Shown here in pieces: positions 3,835-43,264 of a stretch of 43,264 nucleotides of DNA (position 1 is the first letter of the stretch; every line of letters begins with the position of its first letter). The notes beneath the pieces are model-generated. The model was not told the origin of the DNA and did not search any database. It saw only the letters and a program-made list of their open reading frames with translations. Source of the DNA: Flavobacterium branchiophilum NBRC 15030 = ATCC 35035 (GTDB lineage: Bacteria > Bacteroidota > Bacteroidia > Flavobacteriales > Flavobacteriaceae); contig NZ_MUGT01000019.1 of assembly GCF_002217205.1 (NCBI RefSeq), positions 11,594 through 54,857 of the forward strand, written 5' to 3'. The position numbers were made by a program, and so were the translations under genes.

Positions 3835-4398
3835 TTATTGGTTTTGAGGATTATTTAACTTTTTTACTGCGTCGGATTTTACAAAAATAAGTGTTTTAGG
3901 TTCAAATAAGTCTTTGTTTAGTTCCATTTCCTTTTTATTAAATTTTGGAAATGGAGGAACAAGATGCCAATTTACTATTGAATCTTTATTTTTAATTTCT
4001 CCTTCAAAATTTAGATAAATTAAATCACTACAAGCGTGAATTATACAATCCTTTATTATTGATTGGTTTGCATAAGCAAATATTCGTTTCCCAACAATAC
4101 AATACTTCGATTTTAGTATTTCATTTTTATACACTTCTTTATAATTTTTATAAAAGGTATATCTATCATATTCATTGTCATAAGAAGAACCATTCGTTTT
4201 CACAACATTTTCACCAATAAAGAATAGTTCTCTAACCGATGTATGTCCTTTTTCTAAAATTTCAGTATAAAAACCATCCTTCCTGACCAATGTGTCATTC
4301 AAATTAGAACAATTTTCAATTTCAAATCCATAATTTGAATGATTATAACTAGAACAACTTAATAAAAATAATCCAAAAAGGGGAAAATACATTTTCAT
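3835..4398 (-). CDS. putative small lipoprotein of unknown function
   Basis: A 187-residue protein whose N-terminus is a lipoprotein signal: a short hydrophobic stretch ending in LFLLSC, with C15 as the likely lipidated cysteine. I do not recognise the mature domain. It has three further cysteines (residues 30, 99 and 122) and no obvious catalytic motif. A good -7 box lies at 4450-4457, so it is probably transcribed alone. It lies between the defence operon and a small beta-barrel gene, in the accessory block next to tRNA-Asn, so it may be part of the same acquired segment. The envelope location is well supported; the function is unknown. Confidence 0.6.
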   Translation of the reverse strand: MKMYFPLFGLFLLSCSSYNHSNYGFEIENCSNLNDTLVRKDGFYTEILEKGHTSVRELFFIGENVVKTNGSSYDNEYDRYTFYKNYKEVYKNEILKSKYCIVGKRIFAYANQSIIKDCIIHACSDLIYLNFEGEIKNKDSIVNWHLVPPFPKFNKKEMELNKDLFEPKTLIFVKSDAVKKLNNPQNQ

Positions 4399-4449
4399 AG
4401 ATTAAATGTTAATAATATGTTTTTAAGCTATTTTAAGCGTAACACATCA

Positions 4450-4478
4450 CAAATATAAGCAAAATATTTTATCAACAA
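4450..4478 (-). promoter_or_regulatory. promoter of the small lipoprotein gene
   Basis: On the minus strand TTG (complement of 4476-4478) is followed after 18 nt by TATATTTG (complement of 4450-4457). This fits the Bacteroidetes TTG/TAnnTTTG pattern. The predicted start site leaves a leader of roughly 45 nt to the ATG at 4398. Confidence 0.55.
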
Positions 4479-4581
4479 TATATAAAAATAAATGAAATCA
4501 ATTGAAATTACTTCGATTTCGAGTCCACAAAGTTGAAAATAAAAAAATACTAAACAAAACTATTTTTTAGGGAATAAAATT

Positions 4582-5136
4582 TTAAAAAGCAACTCCTGCA
4601 CCAATATTCAAAAAAGTATTGTTATTCGATTCAGACATCCCTGATTCGTATTTTGTTTTAGACAAAATAAAAGTTAAGTTCGTATCGATAAAGATATTTG
4701 GATGTACAAAATATTTTAATCCAGGTGCAATTGTGATTCCATTAGTTTTAATACTTTGATTTGCTGATGTAAATAAACCTGTTGGAGTTGGCTTAAAGGT
4801 TGCATTGTCAAAATAATATCCTAAACCAAAATAAGTATTCATTTTGTTTTGAAGGAAATAATAAGAAGCACTAATATTCGGATTAAAGCCTAGTTTGTTA
4901 GAAAAATTAGTGCTGTTTTTAGAACTAAAATAATATGATTTTAATCCTGCACTGATGTCTAATTTATCCCATTGTTTTAATTGATAATTTATATAAAAAC
5001 TTAATGGTTTGTTGTATATATTGTCATCACTTGTTAAAGAATATGAAATTCCAAACAGAAACTTTTTGGTTGATTTGTCTTGAGCGAAACTCAAAAATGA
5101 AAACATTAGTATAAAAGCAACAATTACATTTTTCAT
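4582..5136 (-). CDS. small outer-membrane beta-barrel protein
   Basis: A 184-residue protein with a clear Sec signal (first about 18 residues, ending SFLSFAQ). The rest alternates short strands with aromatic residues and ends in a hydrophobic strand closing with Phe (GAGVAF), typical of eight-stranded outer-membrane barrels of the OmpA/Ail-like fold. No enzyme motif is visible and the ligand is unknown. It lies immediately downstream, on the same strand, of a truncated ORF, in the block beside tRNA-Asn. The barrel call rests on pattern; the specific family is not assigned. Confidence 0.65.
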   Translation of the reverse strand: MKNVIVAFILMFSFLSFAQDKSTKKFLFGISYSLTSDDNIYNKPLSFYINYQLKQWDKLDISAGLKSYYFSSKNSTNFSNKLGFNPNISASYYFLQNKMNTYFGLGYYFDNATFKPTPTGLFTSANQSIKTNGITIAPGLKYFVHPNIFIDTNLTFILSKTKYESGMSESNNNTFLNIGAGVAF

Positions 5137-34475: not shown

Positions 34476-35189
34476 TTATTCGAAAATTTGTTTTAAAACT
34501 TCGAGCGATTTAGGTTTTCTAAACCCTTCTAAATGAATAGCATAATAATGGACCAAAATTTTAAGCAACTGTTGTCGTTCTAAATGATGAAAAACTTTAG
34601 TGTCATGGTCAAATTTCAGTAATACCAATTTTTTGAACAACAGCGTTTCGTGTAGCGAAAGCGAGCTAATCGCCTGAAAAGGCGAAAACGTACCAGCAGT
34701 CAGTTCAAAATAAGGGTAATCCATCTCGGAAATATCTGGATAAAAACCAAAAAATTTTGACAATTCTAATAAAAAAATCAAATGAAAATTTGAAAAATCA
34801 TCGTGTTGGTCAAACCAAACCAATGTAGTTTCTATAAAAACAAATAAATCTTCGTTTTTTTCTTCTTCATGAATACTAAAATTCAATATTTCAGATAAAA
34901 ACATGACCATAGCACTTTTATAAATATGGCTGTTGATCGATTGAAAAAAATAAGCCAATTTGATTTCTTTGAAATAATGTAATTGTGCTGTGTTTTTAAA
35001 ATTATACGCTATTTCCAAAAGGGTTAACGGCTGAAAATATGCTTTTTTTTGGGCATTTTTTTTAGAAAAATAAGCATCTCGAACTATAAATGATTTCAAA
35101 CCATCGGACAAAGTATAGCATTTCACAATCAGGCTATTTTCTTTATATCTAATACTATTTAGTACAAGGGCTTTGGTTTTGATTTGCAA
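34476..35189 (-). CDS. recO: DNA repair protein RecO
   Basis: A 237-residue recombination mediator that, with RecR, loads RecA on SSB-coated single-stranded DNA in the RecF pathway. The N-terminal OB fold is recognisable (KTKALVLNSIRYKENSLIVKCYT, seen as ALVLNSIRYKENS), followed by the helical domain around FLSEILNFSIHEEEKNEDLF. The zinc-finger cysteines found in some RecO proteins are absent. The stop codon is 7 bp from the end of the convergent porZ-like gene, with no terminator between. Confidence 0.88.
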   Translation of the reverse strand: MQIKTKALVLNSIRYKENSLIVKCYTLSDGLKSFIVRDAYFSKKNAQKKAYFQPLTLLEIAYNFKNTAQLHYFKEIKLAYFFQSINSHIYKSAMVMFLSEILNFSIHEEEKNEDLFVFIETTLVWFDQHDDFSNFHLIFLLELSKFFGFYPDISEMDYPYFELTAGTFSPFQAISSLSLHETLLFKKLVLLKFDHDTKVFHHLERQQLLKILVHYYAIHLEGFRKPKSLEVLKQIFE

Positions 35190-35650: not shown

Positions 35651-36636
35651 ATGAAAACAAATTTAGACGATAAAAACGATAAGTTTTTATTTAATTTTTT
35701 TGGAATTGTATCCAGTATTATTGTATTCAAAGCCCTATTTGATATACTAACGGAACAGTTATTGATTACAAAATTAACTTTTTCTTTGTTAATTTTAAAT
35801 ATTGTTATTTACTATGCCCTAAAAAAAGTAGAAATCAGGAAAAGATTAATTCTTTCTTTTACGTTCTATAATATTATTTGTCTAATAAATTTTATTTTGT
35901 CTTGGGACAAGTTCCCAATGGAAATATTGTTTTTTGTGCTTTTGGGCTATTCCTTGTATCTATATACCAACACCAAAACCATGTTGGTCTATCTATTTGT
36001 TATTGCCTTAATATTAATTGCTACCCCTTCCATTTCTGCATTTATCAAAATGAATATCCAAACGGCAGAGCTCATCAATATTACCGATCAAAACAAAATG
36101 ACAAGCAATTTATTTTTAACTTGTGTCATGATTTTGACTCTGATACTGGTACATCGAAACCGCCACGAAATTGGAGTTTTTAATGTGGCCGATGACTATA
36201 TAGATATTACCGACATCGACAATAGTTTCCATTTTAATACAGAAAAAAAGAGTTATAACTACAAAACAGATGACAAGTATGGATTGCTCTACAAAGAAAT
36301 TATAGAGCTTATGGAAACCAAAAAACCATTTCAAAACCCCAATTATAACTTACATTTATTAGCTAGAGATTTGGTTCTAATGAAACGTATGTGTCTAGGG
36401 CAATTAATAATTGTAGCGAATATGAAAATTTTAAAGCATTGATCAATTTTTACCGTATTACACAAGTGGTTCAGGAATTTGAAAATCAAAACTACAAAAC
36501 GAGTTCCATTAAAGAGATACACACTCGTGCGGGTTTTTCCTATCAGGCTACGTTTAACAGTATATTTAAAAAACATACCAATTTGACCCCTTCAGAGTAT
36601 ATTGATAAAGTAAAAGCTATGCACAAAATGGGATAA
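35651..36636 (+). pseudogene. frameshifted AraC-type membrane-bound transcription regulator
   Basis: The first frame (35651-36442) encodes about six membrane helices (residues about 12-175), a linker with DDYIDITDIDN, and the start of a helix-turn-helix domain (NYNLHLLARDL), then runs off frame. A second frame (to 36636) continues exactly: ETYVSRAINN, NFYRITQVVQEF, then GFSYQATFNSIFKKHTNLTPSEYI, the second HTH of an AraC domain. Adding one G after 36374 joins them as ARDLGSNETYVSRAINN, the usual family sequence. The intact protein would be about 328 residues, a 6-helix sensor with a C-terminal AraC DNA-binding domain. A true mutation, a sequencing error or phase variation could explain it; no long homopolymer is present at the site. 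Confidence 0.85.
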
Positions 36637-36686: not shown

Positions 36687-38909
36687 TTAAAATTGCCAAT
36701 CTATTCCAACCGAAAAATTTCGACCAATATTTGGAATACCCTCCGTTTTTAGTCTGGAAAGATGTGCTATGTAGCTGGTATTTAACATGTTATTTATATT
36801 CAAATGCAAATTTAAAAAGGATTTTCCTAAAGGCACTTTGCCTCCAAATCCAAAATTCAATAAGGAATATTCATTTGAAGGAGTTTCAAAAGCATGTACT
36901 TTATGTTGAGCAAAAGTGGTTTGCCAATTGGCAAACACATAACCCTCTGTAAACCATTTATTAGGATTCAATACAGCCTTCAAGGTATTATTCCATCTGT
37001 TAGCTGGAATTAAGGGTAAGTAAGCACCAGATTGTAATTTGCCATTTACGGTTTCAAAACTACTTTCAAAGTGTAACCAATCTAACGGATGTGGGTGAAA
37101 GTGAACTCCCACTTCGCCTCCCAATAAACGAGAATTGGCCTGTGTATATTCAAACGCAGGAGCGTCTTCAATATCGATTCCTAAAGGCGAAATGTAAATA
37201 AAATTTGAAATACCATTGTAAAAACCATTAACAAACAACTCAAAATGCTTGGATTGGTACTCTAAGTTCAAATCTGTTTGAATGTTTTGTTCGTTTTTCA
37301 AATGGGCATTTCCTATTTCGTATCGGTTTGTCCCTTCATGGATGCCGTTTGATGTTAATTCGGCCAAATTTGGAGCTCTAAAACCTGAAGCCAAGTGCAC
37401 ACGCAGCAACAAATTTTTATTGACATGGGTTTTGTAGCCCAAGGAAAAGTTCCAACTATCAAATCGTCTGTTTAAGGCTTCAAAGCTTCCTGGTTCGGAC
37501 AAAGGGCCATGGTTTTCGGTATCAATTTGTCTGTTATCAAATCGGATACCGCCTTCCAAAACCTGTTTGTTCCATTCGATGTGAGTGGTACCCAATATAC
37601 CAAAATCAACTGTTTTGGCATTTGGAATGAGTAATTCTTCTCCAAAATTACGATTGGTTTGGCTCATGCCTTGTATGCCAATAATGGTTTCTATTTGTGT
37701 AGCTCCATTCCTTTTTATTTTGGGCAAATGGTATTTGAGATCATAATTAACCGTTTGCAGTTTCATGTTCAACAGGGCTACATCACTATCCTCAAATTCG
37801 TTTCGAAGATTGGCTATATAACCCATATTAAATTCTAGCACCGACTTTGTAAAGGTCAAAGTGTTATTAATGCTCCACAAATGATTGGTAACGGCTTGTT
37901 TTGGAAAAGCTGTTTTTTTGCTAAGTGATTGATTCTCTGTATCAAAATAAGGCAATCCGATGTCTAGTTTGTTCCAATTGTAACGAACAACACTCGACAA
38001 TTGACGGTGTTTGTAGCCAATGGCGGCTTTCAAATCGGATTCGTTGTATCGAGAGTTGGTTATGCGTTGGCCTTCTGGAATTTTATAATCGGCGTGGCTG
38101 TTGTGGCTTGCACGAGCCAAAAACGACCATTTTTCGGTGGCTGTTTTTACTCCTAGTGTAGAATGGCTTCCATGAGTATTTGAAAACCATTTTTGGTTAA
38201 AATTGATTTTCCATTCCTTTGGGAGTGCCATTTTTTCGGGGTTAAAATACAAAACACCCCCAAGTGCATCCGACCCATACAATAAGGAGGCAGGCCCTTT
38301 AATGATTTCTACACTTTCTATCCCAGCATCGTTGAGTCCAAGTCCGTGTTCGTCGCCAAATTGTTGGTTTTCTACTCGAATGCCTTGCGAGTAAACCAAA
38401 ACCCTATTGCCGCTTAGCCCTCGGATAACGGGTTTTCCTATAGACGTACCCGTAGCAATTTGCGTTACACCTGGCACAGAGGCCACACCTTCGATAAGTG
38501 TAGTAGCACCTTTTTGTTGCATAGATTTGGTGGTTTGGTGTGTTACTTTGATGACGTTTTGTGATTGCAGTTTTTGAAAAGCAGTTGATACAACGACTTC
38601 GTCCATTTGGAAAAAACTTTCGGTTAGTTTGAAATTGACAATGGTGTTTTGTTGTGCCATGTCGAGTTTTTTTGATTGTGTTTCATAATGTATGGCACTA
38701 CAACTGATTGTGGCATTTTGTTCTAGGGTAATGGTGGTTTCAAAATAGCCTTTATTGTTAGTCGTCAGGGTTGTATATGGTTTTGAAATCGTGATTTGAG
38801 CACCATTAACAGGTTGGTTTTGGCCGTTGGTAACCACACCCGAAACAGTGGTTTGCCCCAAAAGTACTGAAGCGTAAATAAAACAAAGTAAGTTTAAGAT
38901 TTTTTTCAT
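36687..38909 (-). CDS. TonB-dependent receptor, probable metal or metal-chelate uptake
   Basis: A 740-residue outer-membrane receptor. The signal ends SVLLGQ near residue 19, a carboxypeptidase-like domain follows (VSGVVTNGQNQPVNGAQI), then the plug (KPVIRGLSGNRVLVYSQG, IIKGPASLLYGSDALGGV), and a 22-strand-type barrel ending in the aromatic SVGIDWQF. Its length, the IRGLSGNRV plug motif and the RASHNSHADYKIPEGQR barrel segment resemble the ZnuD/heavy-metal receptor group. A Cys/His-rich small membrane protein is encoded upstream on the same strand. The substrate is inferred as zinc, copper or a chelate. I start at the ATG at 38909; a frame open to 39329 reads through a repeat element and lacks a signal peptide. 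Confidence 0.82.
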   Translation of the reverse strand: MKKILNLLCFIYASVLLGQTTVSGVVTNGQNQPVNGAQITISKPYTTLTTNNKGYFETTITLEQNATISCSAIHYETQSKKLDMAQQNTIVNFKLTESFFQMDEVVVSTAFQKLQSQNVIKVTHQTTKSMQQKGATTLIEGVASVPGVTQIATGTSIGKPVIRGLSGNRVLVYSQGIRVENQQFGDEHGLGLNDAGIESVEIIKGPASLLYGSDALGGVLYFNPEKMALPKEWKINFNQKWFSNTHGSHSTLGVKTATEKWSFLARASHNSHADYKIPEGQRITNSRYNESDLKAAIGYKHRQLSSVVRYNWNKLDIGLPYFDTENQSLSKKTAFPKQAVTNHLWSINNTLTFTKSVLEFNMGYIANLRNEFEDSDVALLNMKLQTVNYDLKYHLPKIKRNGATQIETIIGIQGMSQTNRNFGEELLIPNAKTVDFGILGTTHIEWNKQVLEGGIRFDNRQIDTENHGPLSEPGSFEALNRRFDSWNFSLGYKTHVNKNLLLRVHLASGFRAPNLAELTSNGIHEGTNRYEIGNAHLKNEQNIQTDLNLEYQSKHFELFVNGFYNGISNFIYISPLGIDIEDAPAFEYTQANSRLLGGEVGVHFHPHPLDWLHFESSFETVNGKLQSGAYLPLIPANRWNNTLKAVLNPNKWFTEGYVFANWQTTFAQHKVHAFETPSNEYSLLNFGFGGKVPLGKSFLNLHLNINNMLNTSYIAHLSRLKTEGIPNIGRNFSVGIDWQF

Positions 38910-39231
38910 TTTGATATTTTTATAAATAAAATTTTTTGTTATGTTTTGAAAATCATATAATGCATGTATATGTGCTATAAGTGTTTGATAGTCAAATAGG
39001 TATAAATGGCAAAAAACATCAAGTAGCTTAGTTTGATAATATAAACAATCGCCAGCATTGATATGGATTAGCATAGTGTTTGAAATACTTTCTAATAGAT
39101 TTTGACTAAACAACACCCAATTACACCTAACAATACCTCCCAATCTAAGTTTTTTTAAATTATGAAGAAAAACAGCATTTGGAATAAATGGGATTGTTTG
39201 TAAGAATCGACACCTTCTTTTTAGCACGGAT
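38910..39231. other. long leader region of the TonB receptor gene, no gene seen
   Basis: The region has open frames only as an extension of the receptor frame, with an unlikely composition. No TAnnTTTG box is found on the minus strand close to the receptor start, so the receptor may be transcribed from the promoter of the small Cys/His protein (39726-39733) through the repeat at 39232-39332. Confidence 0.4.
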
Positions 39232-39332
39232 GCGTTAGGGATTGCAGTGGAAATCCTTTTTTGTTTTTTTCTTTTAAAAAACAAAAAAGATTGCAACGAA
39301 AAGCCCGACCCCTTGTGGGTAACGCCCAAAAA
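39232..39332. repeat. dispersed intergenic element, copy B
   Basis: Starts GCGTTAGGGATTGCAGTGGAAAT and ends GGGTAACGCCCAAAA (on plus); in reverse complement both ends match copy A at 8992-9176. The centre holds a perfect 14-bp inverted repeat CTTTTTTGTTTTTT/AAAAAACAAAAAAG (39256-39289 region). It lies between the small Cys/His gene and the TonB receptor. Confidence 0.75.
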
Positions 39333-39347
39333 ATAAAGATGATATGA

Positions 39348-39692
39348 TTATAAAACAGGTGGCCCCCTTAAAGAATAGGAAATGCCATTGAAACAAAAGA
39401 AGGAAGCCACTTGATAAGTAGCACTATTTTTGTAAAAATGCAGATTTGCAATGAGAAAAATAGGGGCGTGGTTTACAATTGTAAACGGTTGAAAAGCAAA
39501 ATCGCAGGTTAAACACGAGTCGAAAGAATGGTGTTTGTGGGTCCATTCGGATTTTGAGTGTAGCTTGTGGATACAATTTTTTTCGGCACGAAGCAATTGA
39601 AAATGCTCCAATTGGTCTATCGACTGTAATAATACGGAAGAAAGTATTATGATAGCCGAGAAAAAACCTAATATTTGAGTTAATTTTTTCAA
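39348..39692 (-). CDS. small membrane protein with Cys/His metal-binding-like cluster
   Basis: A 114-residue protein starting at a TTG (MKKLTQILGF). One hydrophobic helix covers about residues 6-25. It is followed by a region dense in possible metal ligands: C40, H42, H45, H52, H54, H55, C60 and C63, the last two as CLTC followed by DFAF. Similar short proteins precede TonB receptors in Bacteroidetes and are thought to be linked to metal sensing or delivery; no function is proven. The frame is open to a TTG at 39728, but a TAACTTTG box at 39726-39733 puts transcription start downstream of that codon. The next gene on this strand is the TonB receptor. Confidence 0.6.
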   Translation of the reverse strand: MKKLTQILGFFSAIIILSSVLLQSIDQLEHFQLLRAEKNCIHKLHSKSEWTHKHHSFDSCLTCDFAFQPFTIVNHAPIFLIANLHFYKNSATYQVASFFCFNGISYSLRGPPVL

Positions 39693-39725
39693 ATTTTGAG
39701 TGTCGATGTGTGGTGTATTAAAATG

Positions 39726-39733
39726 CAAAGTTA
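39726..39733 (-). promoter_or_regulatory. -7 box of the Cys/His small protein gene
   Basis: Minus-strand TAACTTTG followed by C matches the consensus. It predicts a start near 39719 and a leader of about 27 nt to the TTG at 39692. Confidence 0.5.
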
Positions 39734-39945: not shown

Positions 39946-40521
39946 ATGAATATCGATTTGAAACAAATTTTTACCATTACAATGGTGCTTTTTGCTGTTA
40001 TAGACATTATTGGGAGTGTGCCAATAATTGTAAGTTTGCGAAACAAAGTGGGTCATATACAATCAGAAAAAGCGTCGATTGCATCGTTTTTTATTATGGT
40101 ATTGTTTTTATTTATTGGCGATCAATTTTTAAAAATAATAGGGCTAACGGTCAATTCGTTTGCGGTGGCAGGAGCTATTGTACTGTTTTTCTTGGCTTTG
40201 GAAATGATTTTAGGGATTCATCTGTATCGAGATGATGAGGCCCACACGGCCTCTATAGTGCCTATTGCTTTTCCGTTGGTGGCTGGTACAGGAACTCTGA
40301 CAACTTTATTGTCATTAAAGGCTGAGTTTGAAACAATTAATATTATTATTGGTATTTTTATTAATATTTTATTGGTTTATGCCGTTTTAAAATCGTCTGC
40401 CAAGATAGAAAAAATACTCGGAAAAACGGGTTTAAGTATCGTTCGGAAAGTGTTTGGGATTGTACTTTTGGCAATTGCTGTTAAATTATTTGCTGCAAAT
40501 GTTAAAGCCTTGTTTATTTAA
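39946..40521 (+). CDS. MarC family integral membrane protein
   Basis: A 191-residue inner-membrane protein with six predicted helices, covering the complete MarC/NAAT domain. Typical segments are FAVIDIIGSVPII in the first helix, FFLALEMILGI in the third, and the re-entrant-like motif PIAFPLVAGTGTLTTLLSL near residues 106-124. MarC proteins were named from the E. coli mar locus but have no established role in drug resistance; some relatives transport neutral amino acids. It has its own promoter and is followed after 41 bp by a small membrane protein gene. Confidence 0.9.
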   Translation: MNIDLKQIFTITMVLFAVIDIIGSVPIIVSLRNKVGHIQSEKASIASFFIMVLFLFIGDQFLKIIGLTVNSFAVAGAIVLFFLALEMILGIHLYRDDEAHTASIVPIAFPLVAGTGTLTTLLSLKAEFETINIIIGIFINILLVYAVLKSSAKIEKILGKTGLSIVRKVFGIVLLAIAVKLFAANVKALFI

Positions 40522-40537
40522 AAAGATTTTTATTATT

Positions 40538-40557
40538 TTTACGTCCTAAAACGTAAA
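40538..40557. promoter_or_regulatory. 20-bp inverted repeat upstream of the 65-residue membrane protein
   Basis: TTTACGT and ACGTAAA are perfect 7-bp arms around a 6-nt centre, 5 bp before the ATG at 40563. It could be an operator or a small hairpin in the leader that affects ribosome access. Confidence 0.35.
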
Positions 40558-40562
40558 CAACT

Positions 40563-40760
40563 ATGAAAATCTTTACTTATATCCTGTTGGCATTGGCTGG
40601 CACTTTAATTATTTATAACACGACTTTGTTGGATTTTTCAAATTTGACACAAGGCGATAGCCTAGCTGCTTTGATTGGCATATTGGCTTCGATTTGTGCC
40701 GTTTTGATTTTGTTGATATTTAAAATGTCAAAATCAATTGCTGAAAAAATGAAAAGTTAG
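40563..40760 (+). CDS. small two-helix membrane protein of unknown function
   Basis: A 65-residue protein with two hydrophobic helices (about residues 5-21 and 34-54) joined by a polar turn LDFSNLTQGDS and ending in a basic tail MSKSIAEKMKS. I do not recognise a family, although short proteins of this shape are frequent in Flavobacteria. The codon use is like neighbouring genes and it lies 41 bp after marC on the same strand, so it is probably real and perhaps co-transcribed. Membrane topology is the only thing supported. Confidence 0.6.
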   Translation: MKIFTYILLALAGTLIIYNTTLLDFSNLTQGDSLAALIGILASICAVLILLIFKMSKSIAEKMKS

Positions 40761-40866
40761 TTTTTATTCCAAATAAATTCAATAAAGGTTTTTATAATAA
40801 ATACGTGCTACACATCAATATAAATGTTACCCTTGTATCTTTTTTTTTGATAGTACAATAGTTAAA

Positions 40867-40912
40867 AAATGTATAAAAAAAAGGCAAACGAGCTTATTTT
40901 TTTATACATTTG
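40867..40912 (+). promoter_or_regulatory. promoter of the RiPP cassette inside a perfect 15-bp inverted repeat
   Basis: The -7 box TACATTTG at 40905-40912 forms most of the right arm (40897-40911) of an inverted repeat whose left arm is 40867-40881 (AAATGTATAAAAAAA). The spacer is 15 nt. A repressor bound to the arms would cover the promoter, as expected for a metal-responsive switch. The run of T in the right arm could also make it a weak terminator for the gene upstream. The leader to the ATG at 40982 is about 63 nt. Confidence 0.55.
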
Positions 40913-40981
40913 GTATTCGAGAATAGGATTTACTGTAAAAGTAAATATTTGTCGTTACAAATTAATTTAATAAAATCTATT

Positions 40982-41317
40982 ATGAAAAAACAATCAATTT
41001 TAGTAGGTGCTTTAGCTTTAAGCGCATTTACAATGGGAACAACTACAACTTATGCTAGCGTACATGACACTGCAAGTGAAGTTACAACAGTGGAAGCTAC
41101 TTGCGGCGATAAAAAAGTAGAAACAAAAGCAGCAGAAGCTAAATGTGGAGACAAAAAAGCTGAAACCAAAGCACACAAAGGCAAAGAAGGCAAATGTGGT
41201 GAAGGAAAGTGCGGCGAAGGCAAATGTGGCGATAAAAAAGCAGAAAAGAAAGCTAAAAAAGCAGAAAAGAAAGCCGAAAAAAAAGCTAAAAAAGAAGCTG
41301 CAAAAGTAGCAAACTAA
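40982..41317 (+). CDS. HvfA-like exported RiPP precursor peptide (EGKCG repeats)
   Basis: A 111-residue precursor. A Sec signal peptide covers about residues 1-25 (LVGALALSAF, cleavage near TYAS). The mature part has five cysteines: C41 and C55 in EATCGDKK and EAKCGDKK, then C72, C77 and C82 in three back-to-back EGKCG units (69-83). The rest is a Lys/Ala/Glu tail. EGKCG is the motif whose cysteine is converted by MNIO enzymes to an oxazolone-thioamide-type group in the HvfA family, giving copper-binding peptides; related bufferins act in copper tolerance. An MNIO gene and its partner follow. I start at the ATG at 40982, which gives a proper signal; a frame open to 40910 includes the promoter. 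Modification and metal binding are inferred. Confidence 0.85.
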   Translation: MKKQSILVGALALSAFTMGTTTTYASVHDTASEVTTVEATCGDKKVETKAAEAKCGDKKAETKAHKGKEGKCGEGKCGEGKCGDKKAEKKAKKAEKKAEKKAKKEAAKVAN

Positions 41318-41329
41318 TTTGAAAATAGA

Positions 41330-41366
41330 AAAATCGGTGTCCTACAAAGGTACCGATTTTTTTTTA
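41330..41366 (+). terminator. terminator or attenuator between precursor and MNIO genes
   Basis: Stem AAAATCGGT/ACCGATTTT (41330-41338 with 41352-41360), a 13-nt loop and a run of about nine T in all. It would end most transcripts after the precursor and let a fraction through to the enzyme genes. Confidence 0.75.
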
Positions 41367-41382
41367 TAAAAACACATAGAAA

Positions 41383-42189
41383 ATGGTAGGCATTGGGTAT
41401 CGAAAAGAATTTTCATCGGCATTTTTAAATTCGTCTGATTTACAACCTGATTTTGTTGAGGTTGCCCCCGAAAATTGGATTGGCATTGGCGGCTATTGGA
41501 AGCGAGAATTATACAAAGTATTGGACAAATACCCTTTGTATTGTCATGGTTTGTCGCTGTCTGTGGGCAGTCCAGAAGGGGTTGATGTGGCTTTTGTCAA
41601 ACAAGTGAAGCAATTTTTGGACGAAACACAGGCGGTTTTGTATTCAGAACATTTAACCTTTTCTAAAATAGACAATGCCCATTTGTATGATTTGTTGCCC
41701 ATACCGTTTACACAAGAAGCCATAGACAAAGTGGTAGCAAATATCCAAAAAGTTCAGGATATTTTAGGGCGACAACTTATTTTGGAAAACGGAAGTTATT
41801 ATACCGTTTTGAAAGCCGAAATGACGGAAGCCGAATTTATAAATGAAATTGTCGAAAGGGCTGGTTGTGAACTCCTGCTTGATGTGAACAATGTGTATGT
41901 CAATGCCTTTAATCACGGCTATAATGCAAAAGATTTTATCTCGAAAATGCCTTTAGAAAAAGTCAAATACCTCCATATTGCGGGGCATTTTCAGGTAAAC
42001 GACCGCTTAATTATAGACACCCACGGAGCCGCAATTATTGATCCTGTTTTTGAACTTTTAGCCTATACATTGCCGAAAATTGCTCCAAATACTCCCATTT
42101 TGCTTGAAAGGGATTTTAATATTCCTGCGCTCTCCGACTTGCAATTGGAACTGAATAATTTGCGAAAAATTAAAAATAATGCACTATAA
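41383..42189 (+). CDS. MNIO/DUF692 multinuclear iron oxidase, HvfB/BufB-like
   Basis: A 268-residue TIM-barrel enzyme of the DUF692 (UPF0276) family, which uses two or three non-heme irons and oxygen to rewrite cysteines in peptides. The expected iron ligands and active-site residues are present: H55 (CHGLSLS), E89-H90 (SEHLTF), E135-N136, D167-x-N169-N170 (LLLDVNNVYVN), H178, H198 and H202 (HIAGH), D212-x-H214 (DTHG), and E242-x-D244 (LERDFN). It starts 65 bp after the precursor gene, beyond a terminator-like hairpin, and is followed 11 bp later by the DUF2063 partner. Substrate is inferred to be the EGKCG peptide. The full length shows no truncation. Confidence 0.92.
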   Translation: MVGIGYRKEFSSAFLNSSDLQPDFVEVAPENWIGIGGYWKRELYKVLDKYPLYCHGLSLSVGSPEGVDVAFVKQVKQFLDETQAVLYSEHLTFSKIDNAHLYDLLPIPFTQEAIDKVVANIQKVQDILGRQLILENGSYYTVLKAEMTEAEFINEIVERAGCELLLDVNNVYVNAFNHGYNAKDFISKMPLEKVKYLHIAGHFQVNDRLIIDTHGAAIIDPVFELLAYTLPKIAPNTPILLERDFNIPALSDLQLELNNLRKIKNNAL

Positions 42190-42200
42190 ATCAATACGTT

Positions 42201-42950
42201 ATGACAACTAAAAGCCATTCTTTTTCGCTTCAAATGGATTTGGGAAATTACTGTAGAACAGGTGTAAACGAACCCGAAACAAGCATTCAGGAACACACTT
42301 TTCAATACCGTCGGTTGGTTTTTAATGTGGTAAAGGACACCCTCAAAAATGCTTTTCCTTTGACTAGAAAACATATTGGGAAAAAGCGTTGGAAAAAAAT
42401 GGTGTCTTATTTTTTTGAAAATCATCAATGCCAAACGCCTCAAGTTTGGAAACTCCCACAAGAGTTTTGCGACTATTATGAAAAAAACCCACTGCCATTC
42501 AAAAAAGAATTTGATTTTATTCAAGAATTGCTGCAATATGAATGGCTCGAAATTGAAGTTTTTATGATGGAAGACTTGCCTTTTGAAGCGTTTAAAACAA
42601 AGTCAAACTCCAATCAAGATATTGTTGTTCCCAATCCAGAAATTCGGATTTTGCCTTTATCATTTCCCATTCATCAGAAGAAAATTAAAAAAATTACAAA
42701 GGCAGACAAAGGCCAATATTTTGTTGCTATTCATCGAAATTTTGAAACCAAGCAAGTAGCGTTTCATGATTTGAGTTATCCCGTAGTAGCCTTGTTGCTT
42801 GCCCTTCATGAAAAAGACACTACAACAAACGACCTTATTCAAACGTTTATTGAATATGAAAAAGATATAGAAAAAGCAACAACATTTGTAAAGGATTTTA
42901 TTGCTTTTGCACAATCAAAAAGTATGATTTTGGGGTATAAAAAAACCTAA
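42201..42950 (+). CDS. DUF2063 family partner protein, HvfC/BufC-like
   Basis: A 249-residue soluble protein. The N-terminal about 130 residues resemble the DUF2063 putative DNA-binding domain found next to MNIO enzymes: FSLQMDLGNYCRTG, then YRRLVFNVVKDTLKNAFPL and later FCDYY. In this class the partner binds the precursor leader and brings it to the oxidase, which is the inferred role. The C-terminal half (QYFVAIHRNFETKQVAFHDL onward, here noted as VAIHRNFETKQV) follows the HvfC-type layout. It begins 11 bp after the MNIO gene, so the two are co-transcribed. A DoxX gene (HvfD), often fourth in such cassettes, is not found downstream in the window. Confidence 0.8.
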   Translation: MTTKSHSFSLQMDLGNYCRTGVNEPETSIQEHTFQYRRLVFNVVKDTLKNAFPLTRKHIGKKRWKKMVSYFFENHQCQTPQVWKLPQEFCDYYEKNPLPFKKEFDFIQELLQYEWLEIEVFMMEDLPFEAFKTKSNSNQDIVVPNPEIRILPLSFPIHQKKIKKITKADKGQYFVAIHRNFETKQVAFHDLSYPVVALLLALHEKDTTTNDLIQTFIEYEKDIEKATTFVKDFIAFAQSKSMILGYKKT

Positions 42951-43051
42951 GCGGGGTAAAAAACCTGTTTTTTTGTTGAAGTTGTTCTACGAAATTTGAC
43001 ATCAAATGTTGCGGACTTTACTATTATGGTAAATTACGCAAAGATTTTTAA

Positions 43052-43192
43052 ATTGCCTTTCTAGCTAATGATTTTGAAGAATTAGAAAAAGACGGTATAG
43101 CAGTAGGAGACATCATCAAACACCAACAAGAAAAAATTGAAGAATTGACGTTGTATTTGATTGAAAAACATAGAATTACATATAGTATATAG
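43052..43192 (+). pseudogene. C-terminal remnant ending in a coiled-coil tail
   Basis: After a TAA at 43049-43051 a frame runs to a TAG at 43190-43192. It reads IAFLANDFEELEKDG, then IIKHQQEKIEELTLYLIEKH, a heptad-like coiled-coil tail similar to the ends of larger Flavobacterial surface proteins. There is no ATG, GTG or TTG start in this frame before the tail, so it looks like the end of a lost gene. The interval 42951-43051 holds only an AAAAAAC/GTTTTTTT weak hairpin after the RiPP partner gene. The remnant could be chance but its composition argues for decay. Confidence 0.45.
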
Positions 43193-43264
43193 AAATATTT
43201 TATATTTTTTTGTTTTTTTAATAAAAATGTTTGTAGTATAAAAATAATTTATCGAGTTATTTAC

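Follow-up and report, generated by a model that had tools for sequence, protein, structure and literature searches.

The final 2.4 kb of a 43,264-nt stretch of the Flavobacterium branchiophilum NBRC 15030 = ATCC 35035 genome (contig NZ_MUGT01000019.1, assembly GCF_002217205.1; the whole stretch is called here the window) contain three intact open reading frames (ORFs), all on the plus strand, encoding a small precursor peptide, an MNIO oxidase and a DUF2063 protein. An earlier sequence-only reading had described them as a complete HvfA-like cassette, with an EGKCG-bearing precursor, a DUF692/MNIO oxidase and a DUF2063 partner. The Pfam and NCBIfam matches and the recurrence of the genes in relatives bear this description out, and the ORF list and the translations agree with the positions that it gave. 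We read the locus as a horizontally acquired, minimal three-gene EGKCG (Lys-Cys) captophorin cassette that would use thiooxazole chemistry and serve in copper buffering, and give this whole reading a probability of about 0.88. It is built on gene order, enzyme families, active-site motifs, a predicted RRE fold, a hairpin and phylogeny. The features of the locus are as follows:

40867..40911, strand not assigned: AU-rich hairpin or inverted repeat 5′ of the precursor gene (folding)
40982..41317, plus strand: precursor peptide, 111 aa (ORF translation, NF050137 match, upstream homologues in relatives)
41327..41363, plus strand: terminator-like hairpin with a T-run, between the precursor stop and the MNIO start (folding)
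41383..42189, plus strand: MNIO (DUF692) oxidase of HvfB/FonB type, 268 aa (PF05114, NF003818, PDB 3bww)
42201..42950, plus strand: DUF2063-RRE partner (PME type 1, HvfC-like), 249 aa (PF09836, PF22106, AlphaFold2 model)

The contig ends where the window ends, 314 bases past the last stop codon of the cassette.

The MNIO scored 333 bits against Pfam PF05114 (cut-off 25) and 377 bits against the NCBIfam ‘HvfB family’ model NF003818 (cut-off 360), and its alignment with PDB entry 3bww (E = 1.2e-60) spans twelve motif positions. These residues (H55, H90, E135, D167, N169, N170, H198, H202, D212, H214, E242 and D244) were invariant in all 80 rows of an alignment comprising the window and 79 related loci; L022, being nearly identical to L021, was omitted. 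R7 and F245 were conserved in 79/80 rows, and the less conserved neighbours E89 and N136 in 79/80 and 71/80, respectively. It had been claimed that the oxidase carries all its metal ligands; the twelve motif residues stand, and on the 3bww alignment we take them to include every ligand. In HvfB, N175, D242 and H244 are essential (PMC13419390), and we infer that they correspond to the DVNN and DTH motifs of the window's MNIO, HvfB itself lying outside the alignment. FonB has its catalytic base and its Lys-Cys selectivity residue at D249-F250 (PMC13097082); their counterpart in the window is the Asp-Phe pair D244-F245, which is thus shared with the fontiphorin system FonABC. Where FonB has a second Arg (R16), the window has Lys (K8), as in 17/80 rows.

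Three other assignments did not fit: bufferin, by the BufB score (275 bits, cut-off 310) together with the lack of a DUF2282 match; chryseobasin, by the ChrH score (58.9 bits, cut-off 600) and a precursor without the CPxCGxG motif given in the consulted part of PMC12636315; and methanobactin, by the MbnB score (70.7 bits, cut-off 325). The genome encodes a single MNIO and only one KCG-type precursor. We therefore rejected an action of the oxidase on an unlinked substrate, a finding that the sequence-only reading had named as refuting; the enzyme groups with the HvfB family.

The partner scored 59.8 bits against PF09836 and 28.7 bits against PF22106, both above cut-off. Its AlphaFold2 model (pLDDT 90.9) had PDB entry 3dee as best match (E = 4.6e-9) and matched the TglHI complex with E = 5.8e-6; its matches to the MbnABC complex (E = 0.046) and to lasso RREs with bound leader (E of 0.12 and up) were weak. 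On these Pfam scores and the predicted RRE fold, it is a DUF2063-RRE protein of PME type 1.

By eye, the precursor shows a Lys-rich start followed by hydrophobic residues and then a TYA|SV junction, the pattern of a Sec-type signal with a predicted cut after A25, and this region aligns with the signal regions of relatives. Five CG sites follow: C41 (EATCG), C55 (EAKCG) and C72, C77 and C82 in three tandem EGKCG units. The repeated (E/D)xKCG sites of an EGKCG-type captophorin are thus present, and three cysteines (C41, C55 and C82), instead of the two counted earlier, stand in CGDKK. The precursor had no Pfam match and no match to DUF2282. A search for the EGKCG family, the check suggested beforehand, gave 21.0 bits against NCBIfam NF050137 KCGExKCG_twice (cut-off 19.5); similar precursors lie upstream of the MNIO in relatives. 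The predicted mature peptide holds 25 Lys in 86 residues, and its calculated monoisotopic mass is 8986.652 Da, which would fall to 8974.558 Da with three sites modified and to 8966.496 Da with five. Its long Lys/Ala-rich tail, pointed out as a distinguishing trait, is real without being unique, since Chryseobacterium relatives also have a tail rich in Lys, with Ala in L001.

Relatives and class of the cassette

Among the best 80 of 181 loci found to encode a relative of the MNIO, a partner homologue (blastp E ≤ 1e-3) lay directly after the MNIO gene in 80/80, in L064 as a short 118-aa ORF. A similar precursor lay upstream in 76/80: a narrow pattern gave 67/80 and a looser one 75/80, to which L015 was added, where a gene lies between and the precursor was found by the narrow pattern. 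No precursor was found in four loci: L026, L029, and two (L045 and L056) in which the contig starts just upstream of the MNIO. Because the three genes co-recur in relatives, their arrangement is beyond chance. The closest loci in this set were Chryseobacterium loci L001-L003, with MNIOs 75-76% identical to that of the window; three further loci of the Chryseobacterium genus (L115, L116 and L117) were added after the main set.

With its repeated sites, adjacent HvfB-type MNIO and DUF2063-RRE partner, the cassette is, as judged from sequence, an EGKCG-type captophorin (Buf_EGKCG/oxazolin). It had been proposed as a new member of its class, and it is a new member of the EGKCG captophorins, not a new class. 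With fontiphorin FonABC, oxazolin HvfABC and gonophorin it shares a precursor with (E/D)xKCG repeats and a putative signal peptide, the enzymes and the gene order. It differs from the EGKCG / Lys-Cys captophorins by five sites, the first without Lys, by the lack of a leader box and of DoxX, and by its Bacteroidota host; the terminator-like hairpin after its precursor may be a further difference. The bulbicupramide system MmrABC of Microbulbifer is likewise a three-gene EGKCG cassette, but is proteobacterial, with paired-cysteine cassettes and a conserved leader region (PMC12538549). Bufferins 1 and 2 (DUF2282; Buf_6/12Cys) use the same kind of MNIO/DUF2063 machinery and differ in their DUF2282 precursor and BufB-type MNIO. 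The Chryseobacterium cassettes L001-L003, L115 and L116 share with the window an MNIO of 73-76% identity, the plan of the precursor with its non-Lys first site, the absence of a leader box and the hairpin; unlike the window, they carry DoxX after hvfC, and an ECF sigma gene lies upstream in L001 and L115. Our literature search found no published description of these cassettes.

We compared cysteine sites between 21 Bacteroidota-type precursors (the window and L001-L020, L017 and L018 being Ignavibacteriota) and 55 proteobacterial precursors from 60 loci, one of which (L022) is a duplicate and four of which lack a precursor. Position 3 of the first site was a residue other than Lys in 18/21 Bacteroidota-type precursors versus 3/98 of their later sites; the proteobacterial figures were 13/55 first sites and 81/430 later sites. 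These counts come from related rows and no significance is claimed for them. As most Bacteroidota-type precursors have a non-Lys first site, the ‘degenerate’ first site is a signature of the branch. The EATCG and EAKCG sites that the sequence-only reading had singled out are therefore present as described, yet they are nothing unusual among Bacteroidota-type relatives. Together with its relatives, the window locus defines a branch in Bacteroidota whose signatures are a non-Lys first site, a hairpin behind the precursor and, at many loci, ECF sigma genes; the captophorin literature examined, in the parts consulted, centres on Pseudomonadota.

Hairpins around the precursor gene

The hairpin at 41327-41363 folded with a z-score of -4.38, and none of 200 shuffles was equally stable (0/200). 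Hairpins in this position could be examined in 19 of the 21 Bacteroidota-type loci, L007 (one-base gap) and L015 (gene between) being left out. Under first criteria (stem of at least 5, 3 GC pairs, 5 T of 8), applied without a shuffle control, 15/19 loci scored. Under second criteria (stem of at least 7, 4 GC, 4 T of 8), 18/19 did so (median z-score -4.66), where shuffling these stretches gave an expectation of 0.11. Proteobacterial loci showed the hairpin in 20/46 cases, with 0.51 expected; this set of 46 out of 60 excludes L022, the four loci without a precursor and nine with divergent or truncated precursors, five of which scored under the first criteria. The later loci L115-L117 had the hairpin in 3/3, again without a shuffle control. 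The architecture is shared, and the stem sequences differ between lineages. In L015, a Flavobacterium relative, an outer-membrane beta-barrel type gene (4056-4967; PF13557, 24.9 bits) stands between precursor and MNIO; by eye, a hairpin lies directly 3′ of the precursor there too.

The simplest reading of the hairpin is partial termination, which would favour the precursor over the enzymes. A full terminator with separate promoters may be present instead and would have the same effect. Either way, the precursor would be in excess over the enzymes. Sigma-70-type sites in 40500-43264 numbered 14 against 10.3 expected (sd 2.9). A limited literature search, including a term search in the available part of PMC12452194, returned no published account of a hairpin between precursor and MNIO.

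The upstream hairpin (40867-40911) had a z-score of -4.63, with 1/200 shuffles equally stable, and may terminate the upstream gene or act as an operator. Its inverted repeat ends in TACATTTG, a match to the -7 promoter pattern TANNTTTG. In the whole window TANNTTTG matched 106 times against 81.8 expected (0/100 shuffles as high), and a single plus-strand match, at 40905-40912, lies between the upstream gene and the precursor.

Cysteine modification, leader and function

The sequence-only reading had invoked an oxazolone-thioamide-type ligand. This is out of date: the modification of the EGKCG-type cysteine has been reassigned to a 5-thiooxazole, with 4 H lost per Cys, by the oxazolin group and by another group (PMC13097082, PMC13419390), and 5-thiooxazole is also reported for bufferin 1 (PMC13097082). 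For the chemistry, for a signal peptide that doubles as leader, and for export, copper binding and a role in copper stress we draw on characterised relatives, and for the excess of precursor on the sequence; the course that we propose is as follows. The terminator-like hairpin behind its stop codon would keep the precursor in excess over the enzymes; the DUF2063-RRE partner would grip it via its Sec signal peptide; and the MNIO, with a mixed-valent diiron site and O2, would convert each CG-motif cysteine, most likely all five, into a 5-thiooxazole, with 4 H lost per site. Sec would then export the peptide and the signal would be removed, and the modified peptide would bind Cu(I) in the periplasm and buffer copper stress. 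We hold copper buffering in the cell envelope as the probable function with moderate confidence, by analogy.

That five sites are modified is plausible because EAKCG is modified in native FonA (FonA67-80) and FonBC accepts Thr or Ala at position 3 (PMC13097082). Somewhat unlikely, though a real possibility, is that the same cassette and chemistry would convert only the three tandem EGKCG cysteines, with C41 and C55 left as free thiols, either as extra metal ligands or in a disulfide. The excess of non-Lys residues at first sites (18/21 versus 3/98) could mark a differently treated cysteine, and FonBC, which modified a substrate with two repeats, left one with a single repeat unmodified, so that the isolated C41 and C55 may be poorer substrates. 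However, FonBC accepted Ala or Thr at position 3 with both repeats changed, and two Wenyingzhuangia precursors are made up mainly of DAKCG sites.

Once its signal peptide is removed, HvfA undergoes little modification (-2.5 versus -20.3 Da; PMC13419390). In the precursors of L004-L020 the signal is followed by LGxGxx(V/L)R or a near variant (16/17 by script; L006, with LGSGSVIR, by eye), and LxxGY or a near variant occurs in 41/55 proteobacterial precursors. The script found neither box in the precursors of the window and L001-L003, and by eye those of L115 and L116 have none; L117, on a deeper branch (67% MNIO identity), has an LGNGYEVR box. The window's clade thus lacks the box in 6/6 members, whereas its nearest outgroup has it. 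We tentatively suggest, as an idea with rather less than even odds, that the box was lost in the Chryseobacterium/window clade, where the Sec signal peptide alone would act as the leader recognised by the partner and the hairpin would set the substrate excess, and that this may be the smallest natural captophorin system. If true, the system would comprise a signal peptide, five sites and two enzymes, without DoxX or a linked sigma factor. Co-divergence of the partner with box loss, for which a faster partner divergence in the box-less clade was expected, was not borne out: the mean log-identity ratio of partner to MNIO was 2.07 for the clade (window, L001-L003) versus L004-L019 and 2.20 among L004-L019. 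A compensating change in the partner therefore finds no support. The box-less clade lends itself to asking whether the signal peptide is by itself enough of a leader.

As had been remarked earlier, no DoxX gene neighbours the cassette. None was found on the contig behind it, which ends 314 bases past the last stop, none genome-wide by PF07681, and a genome search with the Chryseobacterium DoxX protein gave a best E of 0.22. A DoxX remnant behind hvfC was also rejected: the last 314 bases, compared in six frames with the relatives' loci, matched only copies of the window. DoxX lies within the examined stretch in 14/20 loci L001-L020, and directly behind hvfC in L001-L003 and L115-L117; of the genomes of relatives searched, 25/26 have it. 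The core genes occur ‘in various combinations’ in published biosynthetic gene clusters (PMC12452194), so we treated DoxX as common and non-defining. The Microbulbifer cassette is apparently DoxX-free, being described as mmrA-C only with DoxX unmentioned in a term search of the available text (PMC12538549). ECF sigma genes were found near 13/20 loci L001-L020 (two by Pfam, the rest by similarity) and 12/17 of L004-L020; sigma factors are reported for Buf1, not Buf2, in the consulted part of PMC12452194. A small Cys-containing protein, possibly an anti-sigma, often stands beside the EGKCG cassettes of L004-L020, and the one tested had no Pfam match. With neither DoxX nor a linked sigma gene, the cassette makes a handy minimal system in which to study the contribution of DoxX.

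Besides the one-repeat result, several points weigh against our reading. The precursor scored 30.9 bits against the HvfA equivalog NF050188 (cut-off 95), which makes it HvfA-family without filing it as an HvfA orthologue, and the partner scored 116.7 bits against the strict NCBIfam HvfC cut-off of 142. The 41327-41363 hairpin was not among the 3 terminator-like sites that a stock scan (loop limit 8) listed in the region, where 1.8 were expected, and the hairpin count comes from a purpose-made detector and folding. No ECF sigma gene was found in the window, to which the search was limited; with DoxX also missing, regulation may differ from that of the relatives. Finally, MmrABC went undetected when copper was added, and the protection that it gave Escherichia coli was slight (PMC12538549), which makes a copper-stress role uncertain.

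A copper-protective role has been doubted for MmrA (PMC12538549), which would fit an unlikely alternative, in which the product would serve copper acquisition, zinc handling or redox/sulfur stress and not copper detoxification. A weakly ZnuD-like TonB-dependent receptor gene (window 36687-39728, minus strand; 158.8 bits, cut-off 950) about 1.6 kb upstream points the same way, as do peroxiredoxin and carbonic anhydrase genes upstream in L002 (by Pfam) and L003 (by clustering). However, neither the receptor nor its 126-aa neighbour had a tblastn match (E ≤ 1e-3) near the 23 relatives L001-L020 and L115-L117. This 126-aa protein, which adjoins the receptor, contains His and Cys and is possibly metal related.

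Host and origin of the cassette

RpoB (1091 residues) was 93.7% identical to that of a named Flavobacterium, 91-96% to those of three genomes of its genus and 78% to that of Chryseobacterium, which upholds the earlier call of a Flavobacterium-type genome. In the MNIO and partner trees, the window proteins grouped with Weeksellaceae (100/100), apart from Flavobacteriaceae L010, L014 and L015; the MNIO tree placed the window inside Weeksellaceae (91/87, 92/87), and the partner tree left the inner order unresolved. A host that is Flavobacterium by RpoB, with an oxidase and partner of Weeksellaceae affinity, makes horizontal transfer likely, and the simplest reading of the trees is a transfer of the cassette apparently from Chryseobacterium-type bacteria. 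Old paralogues with many losses may explain the pattern instead. At E ≤ 1e-60, HvfB-type MNIOs occurred in 2/398 sampled genomes of the window's genus, the other one being 59% identical, and in 6/148 of the Chryseobacterium genus.

A contaminant contig was rejected: gene 34476-35189 on the same contig, presumably recO, encodes a product 49-61% identical to those of four Flavobacterium-type genomes and 27-30% to those of two Chryseobacterium, and MarC followed by the same 65-aa protein occurred in 4/4 Flavobacterium-type loci and 0/2 Chryseobacterium loci. In the window this 65-aa protein, which has no Pfam match, is encoded behind MarC at 40563-40760. A plasmid origin was likewise rejected, as none of the MNIO relatives on 356 plasmid records was at least 60% identical.

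It is very unlikely that the locus is a decaying or silent transferred fragment, its genes unexpressed and its DoxX and regulators left behind. Such a state would fit the rarity of HvfB-type MNIOs in the genus (2/398), the lack of DoxX in a genome whose 6/6 Chryseobacterium-type counterparts have it next to hvfC, and the absence of an ECF sigma match in the window. However, none of the three ORFs is broken, the MNIO retains the active-site residues given above, and it has remained free of stops at 73-76% identity to its box-less relatives, which suggests selection after transfer.

A first draw of the genus had found MNIOs in 7/121 genomes, the window's own included. In the other six (L082-L087) the enzyme is of another kind, at 30-38% identity, and the stretches examined gave no HvfC match; in 5/6 of them a Cys-rich ORF of 192-195 aa without an obvious signal peptide adjoins the MNIO. 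Elsewhere in the window, what looks by eye like a frameshifted regulator gene lies at 35651-36636: a 263-aa ORF is overlapped, in another frame, by an ORF similar to the DNA-binding end of an AraC-type protein.

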